Notes under the pieces: model-generated | Told to the model about the DNA's origin: nothing | Databases searched by the model: none | The model's input: the letters and a program-made list of their open reading frames with translations, nothing else | Shown: piece by piece, positions 27,955 to 61,436 of the stretch | Layout: each line of letters begins with the position of its first letter | Position numbering within the stretch: the stretch's first letter is position 1 | Translations under genes and position numbers: made by a program | From: Tepidiphilus sp. J10 | Lineage (GTDB): Bacteria > Pseudomonadota > Gammaproteobacteria > Burkholderiales > Thiobacillaceae | DNA length: 64,000 bases | Reading direction: 5' to 3' | Assembly (NCBI GenBank): GCA_945897865.1 | Contig: CAMDHJ010000001.1 | Location: forward strand, 1 to 64,000

Positions 27955-28140
27955 GGCTCAATTCTTGTTACGTAGGGATGACCAATGCCCAGCAGCCTCC
28001 GAGAGGACTTCCCCCTTTGTAAAGGGGGATTGAGGGGGATTTTGCCGGTGGTGCCTTACGCGGATGTCCCGTAAATCCCCCCTAACCCCCCTTTTTCAAA
28101 GGGGGGAACTCTCCCATCACTACTTAACGCGAACTGAGCC
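27955..28140. mobile_element. MITE-like element copy A (186 bp) flanked by 8 bp direct repeats ATTCAAAA
   Basis: Ends ggctcaattcttgtta... and ...taacgcgaactgagcc are imperfect inverted repeats; ATTCAAAA at 27947-27954 and 28141-28148. Confidence 0.85.
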
Positions 28141-40902: not shown

Positions 40903-41063
40903 GGGAGAGTTCCCCCCTTTGGAAAAGGGGGGTTAGGGGGGATTTATGGGACATCCGCGTAAGGCACCGCCGTCAAAATCCCCCTCAATCCCCCTTTACA
41001 AAGGGGGAAGTCATCTCGGAGGCTACTGCGCATTGGTCATCCCTACTTAACAAGAATTGAGCC
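40903..41063. mobile_element. MITE-like element copy B, left end degenerate
   Basis: gatgggagagttccccccttt...catccctacttaacaagaattgagcc matches copies A and C; the left terminal inverted repeat is missing. Confidence 0.75.
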
Positions 41064-59731: not shown

Positions 59732-59824
59732 TCTATCTGGACAGGCTCATAGGCCCCGTTGTAACAAACCTGGCATAGCTTGAGCGGTGTTCAAAACCAC
59801 AAACTGATTGGTACGGAGATTGCA

Positions 59825-60841
59825 ATGACTCACCTTCGCTCGCTGCAGAAACTCACCATGCTGGCATCCGCCATGCTCATCAGCATGTCACCTCTGGCCG
59901 CCGACATTACCGGCGCCGGCGCGACTTTCCCCTATGCGGTCTACACCAAATGGGCCGAAGCCTATAAAGCCGCCACCGGCAATCAGGTGAACTACCAGGG
60001 TATCGGCTCCTCCGGCGGCATCAAGCAGATCATGGCCAAGACCGTCGATTTTGGCGGCAGCGACGCCCCGCTGAAGGAAGCGCAACTCGACGCTGCCGGT
60101 CTGGTGCAAGTCCCGACCGTGATGGGCGGCATCACCATCGTCCACGGGGTTCCCGACATCGAAACCGGCAAGCTGCAACTGGATGGCGCCACTGCCGCCG
60201 ACATCTTCGGCGGCGTGATCAGGAAGTGGAACGATCCTGCGATTGCCAAGCTGAATCCTGACCTCAAGTTGCCCAATATGCCGATTGTCGTTGCGCATCG
60301 TTCCGACGGTTCCGGTACGACCTATGCGTTTACCAATTACTTGGCCAAACAATCTGCCGGCTTCCGACGCAAAGTCGGCACCGGCACCACGGTGAACTGG
60401 CCGACCAACGGAGTCGGTGGCAAAGGCAATCCTGGCGTCGCCTCCAATGTGCAAAAGATCAAGGGCACCATCGGCTATGTCGACATCGCCGACGCCATGA
60501 AGAACAAGATGACTTTCGTGGCGCTGAAGAACAAAGCCGGCAACTACATCGTCCCGAACCAGCAATCCATCGCGGATGCCGCTTTCGGTGTCAACTTCAG
60601 GATCAAGGGCATGGCCCCCGACCTGCTCGACCAAAGCCACCAGAACGCCTGACCAATCACCACCGCAACCTACGCCCTGGCGTATCAAAAGGGTTCGGAT
60701 GCAAGCCGGCAAAAGGGCGTGGTCGACTTCTTCACCTGGTCTTTGAACAACGGTCAGAAACTGGCGGAAGAAATTGGCTTCCTGGCGTTGCCGGACAACG
60801 TGGTGAAGATGGTCGAGAACGAGATGAAGCGGATCAATTAA
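59825..60841 (+). pseudogene. pstS: Phosphate ABC transporter substrate-binding protein PstS interrupted by an in-frame TGA
   Basis: DITGAGATFPYAVYTKWAEAYKAATGNQVNYQGIGSSGGIKQI; TGA at 60650-60652 where Trp is expected (QNA[*]PITTATYALAYQKG), same frame continues to TAA at 60839-60841. Confidence 0.85.
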
Positions 60842-60870
60842 CCTGGAAAACTCAGTTGAGCGCGGATATA

Positions 60871-60936
60871 TCTCCGCTTGCGGGCCCAGTACCACAACTC
60901 GCCTCAACGCTCGCGCCGCAAGCGGACGCTCCTACA
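60871..60936. repeat. REP-like palindromic repeat (copy 2, inverted relative to copy 1)
   Basis: Reverse complement of 57717-57779 arms: ...ctcaacgctcgcgccgcaagcggacgctcctaca; homology extends into cggacaactgccgaatcc. Confidence 0.75.
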
Positions 60937-60994
60937 ACGCGGACAACTGCCGAATCCAGGATTAAGCCCGACTTGGGAGCTTATTGATCCGGCA

Positions 60995-61247
60995 TGTAGG
61001 TGCGAATTTATTCGCACGCAAGCGGTTGATGATGCGAATAAATTGGCTCAGTTCGCGTTAAGTAGTGATGAGTGTTCCCCCCTTTGAAAAAGGGGGGTTA
61101 AGGGGGGATTTATGGGACATCCGCATAAGGCACCGCCGTCAAAATCCCCCTCAATCCCCCTTTACAAAGGGGGAAGTCCTCTCGGAGGCTGCTGCGCCTT
61201 GGTCATCCCTACTTACCAAGAATTGAGCCAATAAATTCGCACCTTCA
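60995..61247. repeat. Palindromic repeat R1 (tgtaggtgcgaatttattcgcac...gcgaataaattcgcacctTca), interrupted by MITE copy C
   Basis: 5' part 60995-61044 and 3' part 61230-61247 reconstitute a unit matching R2 at 61339-61397. Confidence 0.8.
61045..61229. mobile_element. MITE-like element copy C (185 bp) flanked by 8 bp direct repeats AATAAATT
   Basis: Ends ggctcagttcgcgttaagtagtgatg and catccctacttaccaagaattgagcc; AATAAATT at 61037-61044 and 61230-61237. Confidence 0.88.
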
Positions 61248-61338
61248 GTCCAGGCAACCGCGTTTTCAAGGATCAATAACCCTGGAATCCTCAGTTGGGA
61301 TTGAATATTGTGAAATTTCAAGCAGTTGCGTTACTGAT

Positions 61339-61397
61339 GTAGGTGCGAATTCATTCGCACACAAGCGGTTGATTTTGCGAATAAATTCGCACCTACA
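61339..61397. repeat. Palindromic repeat R2 (intact)
   Basis: tgtaggtgcgaattcattcgcacacaagcggttgattttgcgaataaattcgcacctaca; self-complementary arms. Confidence 0.8.
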
Positions 61398-61436
61398 GTC
61401 CGGTCAACTGCGTTTTTTAGGATAACCAATCGAAGC

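Follow-up and report, generated by a model that had tools for sequence, protein, structure and literature searches.

The window, a stretch of 64,000 nucleotides from Tepidiphilus sp. J10 (contig CAMDHJ010000001.1, positions 1 to 64,000), contains a pstS-like gene (59780-60841) followed by a convergent gene, and a short element without a transposase gene, designated here as a family-A MITE, is located between the 3' ends of these two genes. Between pstS and the convergent gene, three Y-type repeats are stacked, and the oldest-looking of them holds the IS1595-type MITE. At about position 60650 the pstS-like gene has an in-frame TGA where its counterpart in the closest relative (G018, pstS 89% identical) has TGG; possibly it is a pseudogene, or an assembly or strain variant. 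A second pstS-like copy, 74% identical at the DNA level, is found on contig C53. The features of the window are as follows.

27955-28140, minus strand: full-length family-A copy, 186 bp, with the duplication ATTCAAAA on both sides
40905-41063, plus strand: left-truncated family-A copy inside a family-B element
60842-60960, plus strand: another Y-type element, 119 bp long and different in its core, between 5-bp duplications ATTAA (60837-60841 and 60961-60965)
60995-61044: left part of palindrome R1, split by the MITE; 92% identical to R2
61037-61044: left copy of the target duplication AATAAATT, 8/8 match
61045-61229, plus strand: family-A MITE, 185 bp, without transposase gene
61045-61070, plus strand: left terminal repeat GGCTCAGTTCGCGTTAAGTAGTGATG, which agrees at 25/26 positions with the left end of a same-genus IS1595-family element
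61076-61176: core repeat within the MITE (element positions ~32-132), a double CCCCCTTT..AAAGGGGG palindrome, which family B also carries and which occurs widely in the genus
61204-61229, minus strand: right terminal repeat GGCTCAATTCTTGGTAAGTAGGGATG, as read on this strand
61230-61237: right copy of the target duplication AATAAATT, 8/8 match
61238-61271: right part of R1, running into a decayed Y-family right end (..GTTTTCAAGG)
61281-61421, plus strand: intact Y-family element, 141 bp, holding R2 (about 61338-61397); 5-bp duplication ATAAC at 61276-61280 and 61422-61426

The preliminary description had proposed a 185-bp element with imperfect inverted ends between perfect 8-bp duplications. 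Its coordinates proved exact, with AATAAATT on both sides and 21 of 26 positions matching between the two ends. The probability of an 8/8 match by chance is approximately 5e-5 for random 8-mers in this DNA and 5e-4 for A+T-rich 8-mers. The MITE folds into a single long imperfect hairpin (z = -5.6) and was inserted in the A+T-rich centre of GCG-AATAAATT-CGC. Joining its flanks with one AATAAATT restored a 60-nt palindrome which differs from R2 at 5 positions (~92% identity), with more differences in the approximately 26 nt beyond the palindrome; the reconstructed empty site is real, although its earlier characterisation as nearly identical to R2 was slightly too strong. As AATAAATT occurs only once in R2 (61380-61387), R2 represents a paralogous empty site. 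No match to the MITE was found in the plasmid collection, and an Rfam search with the palindrome revealed only microRNA-like or small-RNA chance matches, all under the gathering scores.

The genome of the window was searched as a fragmented assembly of 3.89 Mb in 247 contigs, 86% complete; judged by one protein, the betaproteobacterial MAG DeMMO4_3 is its nearest named relative. Five full-length family-A copies of near-constant length (179-186 bp) were identified. The expected 8-bp duplications were perfect in three of them (AATAAATT, ATTCAAAA and TATAAAAA) and matched at 7/8 positions in a fourth (TTTCCAAA/TTTTCAAA), but the fifth copy is decayed, with a 5/8 match and mutated terminal bases. 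A sixth copy (C24:15-388) is split by a Y-type repeat and shows a 6/8 duplication, which becomes 8/8 on the assumption that one terminal base is missing. The end pattern gave 19 matches in the genome as compared to 0 for a reversed control pattern. At one locus (L049, G000:C129:10408), a 46-bp remnant consists of both A ends back to back with the entire interior missing. The duplications at independent copies, together with the paralogous empty site R2, substantiate the earlier interpretation as a real transposition event.

A search for the ends in 199 genomes, namely the window's own and its relatives, found them in only 5, namely the window's own genome and four more, none of which lies outside its genus; a family-wide search of 117 genomes with a slightly different pattern added one weak same-genus match (G011). 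At locus L138 of genome G014, the end is followed directly downstream by an intact transposase of 317 amino acids matching NF033547 (transpos_IS1595, 164 bits) and PF12762 (32 bits), both above cut-off. The left ends of the MITE and of the same-genus IS agree at 25 of 26 positions, and the agreement of the right ends is weaker (20-21/26). The IS1595 family, guessed at beforehand, is hence well founded: in genomes of the same genus, the 26-bp end directly precedes an IS1595-family transposase, and the ends of the IS1595 element ISOar1 are closely similar. Two more short elements with the same ends carry perfect 8-bp duplications, TATCTTTA on both sides in G022 and AAAAAAAA on both sides in G017. 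Elsewhere, related ends and 8-bp duplications are found at IS1595-family elements including ISOar1 (TATATCTT), an Acidovorax element (CGATTCCA) and L129 in G022 (TAAATTAA), and 8-bp duplications are described for this family in the literature (PMC8101967).

The full-length transposon for which the preliminary description suggested a search was recovered in part. L138 joins the end to an intact transposase gene but is missing the right end, none of the elements found is a full-length, uninterrupted parent flanked by a duplication, and the window's own assembly has no intact one. Other contigs of G014 link the 3' end of the same transposase gene to GGCTCAGTTCGCGTTAAGTGAGGATG. Many contigs of G014 and G017 stop just inside the ends, a pattern typical of a multi-copy IS, and those carrying the right end overlap the 3' end of the transposase. 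The window's own assembly gave no match to PF12762 and no intact IS1595-family transposase; it holds one decayed transposase fragment of 61 residues (54% identity) with no matching ends nearby. Because of the fragmentation of this assembly, the missing resident transposase is weak evidence.

The interior of the MITE is a two-hairpin repeat which occurs in most genomes of the genus and, among the copies examined, mostly without A ends. Internal deletion of a parent IS is one of several proposed origins of MITEs. This origin (Type I) was ruled out here: except for a 9-bp chance match, the interior has no similarity to the L138 element, and as the core also occurs elsewhere without A ends, it does not stem from an internally deleted IS. 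What the A ends enclose is a palindromic core repeat. Of the core copies in the window's genome, five are bounded on both sides by A ends and five likewise by B ends; several others are A/B hybrids, and seven (some partial) have neither end within scan reach. Family B is characterised by CAATGGCAC ends and 11-bp duplications, three of them perfect; that its mover may be IS4-like is only a guess. At C1:40905 and on C116, a B element contains an A right end, an arrangement consistent with insertion of A in the A+T-rich part of a B core and subsequent core-core recombination. The hybrid copies suggest that cores act as recombination points. On contig C9 of G011, the core repeat occurs in a closely spaced series with copies approximately 110-135 bp apart.

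R1 and R2, described previously as palindromes, are indeed palindromic but not simple palindromes, as they form the core of the mobile repeat family Y. This family (L147-L166) comprises about 20 copies of 141 bp which are 97-100% identical, many of them near contig ends, and its 5-bp duplications are perfect in 14 of 21 cases. Y was recently amplified and is the youngest-looking mobile repeat here. R2 is the centre of a Y element; R1, which kept the Y core and right end and lacks the left arm, is a decayed Y relative. Mobility of R2 of the REP/RAYT type was considered and dropped, as the borders of the 141-bp Y copies are fixed and are accompanied by 5-bp duplications. Elements of the IS1380 family generate 4-5-bp duplications, and the Y family is possibly IS1380-driven: one contig of G017 has an end similar to Y (GAGGAATCCAGG), and no complete IS1380 element with Y-matching ends was found. 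At three of the exceptions to the perfect 5-bp duplication (L154, L157 and L159), TGTGCGCCGGTAAAGACCGGCAAGGAGTAGATGGTGAAAGTCC, which resembles the start of a group II intron, follows exactly after the Y end. At L158 and L163, Y is nested at the same TTCAA site within another Y-type repeat; either this site is a hot spot or the nested unit was moved or copied together. The comparison with related genomes covered the orthologous intergenic DNA of G018, a much shorter region from which the MITE, R1 and R2 are all missing.

In the genus, the 8-mers adjoining IS1595-type ends are 88% A+T, as judged from 43 distinct flanks. Of these 43 flanks, 7 border a G+C-rich hairpin placed where a terminator would be, as compared to 2% of A+T-rich control sites (binomial ~2e-5). 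In this statistic, flanks belonging to a single insertion depend on each other, and control sites could also lie outside intergenic DNA. Part of the excess may simply reflect insertion between genes. The ends at L109, L110, L112, L133, L142, L010 and L005 lie in a T-tract directly beside terminator-like hairpins.

The element is very probably a non-autonomous MITE that an IS1595-family transposase mobilised in trans. This enzyme would recognise GGCTCAGTTCGCGTTAAG-type ends and make cuts staggered by 8 bp in an A+T-rich target, and the duplication would arise upon repair. An L138-type transposase, or a copy that was lost or is unassembled, presumably did the moving. A Y-family repeat would have been there first and decayed to R1, before the MITE was inserted in the AATAAATT of R1. 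ISL3 ends often start with GGCTC, and neither this start nor 8-bp duplications are unique to IS1595; the MITE might therefore have been mobilised by another family with 8-bp duplications, ISL3 or IS66. This very improbable alternative is largely refuted by the left end, which is 25/26 identical over 26 bp to ends directly on a same-genus IS1595-family transposase, and by the named IS1595 element ISOar1, which carries the end motif.

The element is strongly palindromic and lies between convergent genes, and the hybrid copies suggest that core recombination occurs; hence one could think of a palindromic or terminator-like repeat spread by recombination without any transposition, with AATAAATT repeated by chance as the palindromes share it. 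However, perfect duplications stand at the unrelated sites ATTCAAAA and TATAAAAA, the outer boundaries are fixed, the same ends are found on a transposase gene, and a search of the MITE stretch for a terminator-like site found none. The independent duplications refute such a spread, which we regard as extremely improbable. The core, being far commoner across the genus than the A ends and often free of A or B ends, could itself be the mobile unit with incidental IS1595 ends, but the duplications lie exactly at the A ends and not at the borders of the core, which renders this exceedingly unlikely as well.

The locus is a clean case of repeats stacked on one another, for which both an empty site and the family of the transposase could be identified. 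It is conceivable, although we consider it rather unlikely, that cores are swappable and paired with ends from different transposases: a genus-wide core would have been acquired by no fewer than two unrelated end sets (A, IS1595-type with 8-bp duplications, and B with 11-bp duplications), and Y likewise shows different cores between similar ends. That two end systems share one core is relevant to the origin of bacterial MITEs.

Among known elements, L138 has a left end nearly identical to that of the MITE but encodes a transposase and has an unrelated interior. L129, with similar ends and the duplication TAAATTAA on both sides, also encodes a transposase. ISOar1 of Octadecabacter arcticus shares closely similar ends (GGCTCAATTCGCATTAGCTA) and an A+T-rich 8-bp duplication (TATATCTT on both sides), but is 1044 bp long with its own transposase. 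MITEAba12 of Acinetobacter is likewise a short bacterial MITE that inserts in A+T-rich targets and for which an IS parent acting in trans has been proposed; it differs in its parent ISAba12, its 9-bp duplications and its length of 113 bp (PMC6382973). By its description, an IS1595-family MITE of Haloquadratum walsbyi has almost the same architecture (165 bp long and present in 7 copies, with inverted repeats of 25 bp and direct repeats of 8 bp), although its host is archaeal and its putative parent, ISHwa6, is a different one (PMC3852290). With this precedent, an IS1595-type MITE is ordinary in kind, and one core common to two end systems is less ordinary.
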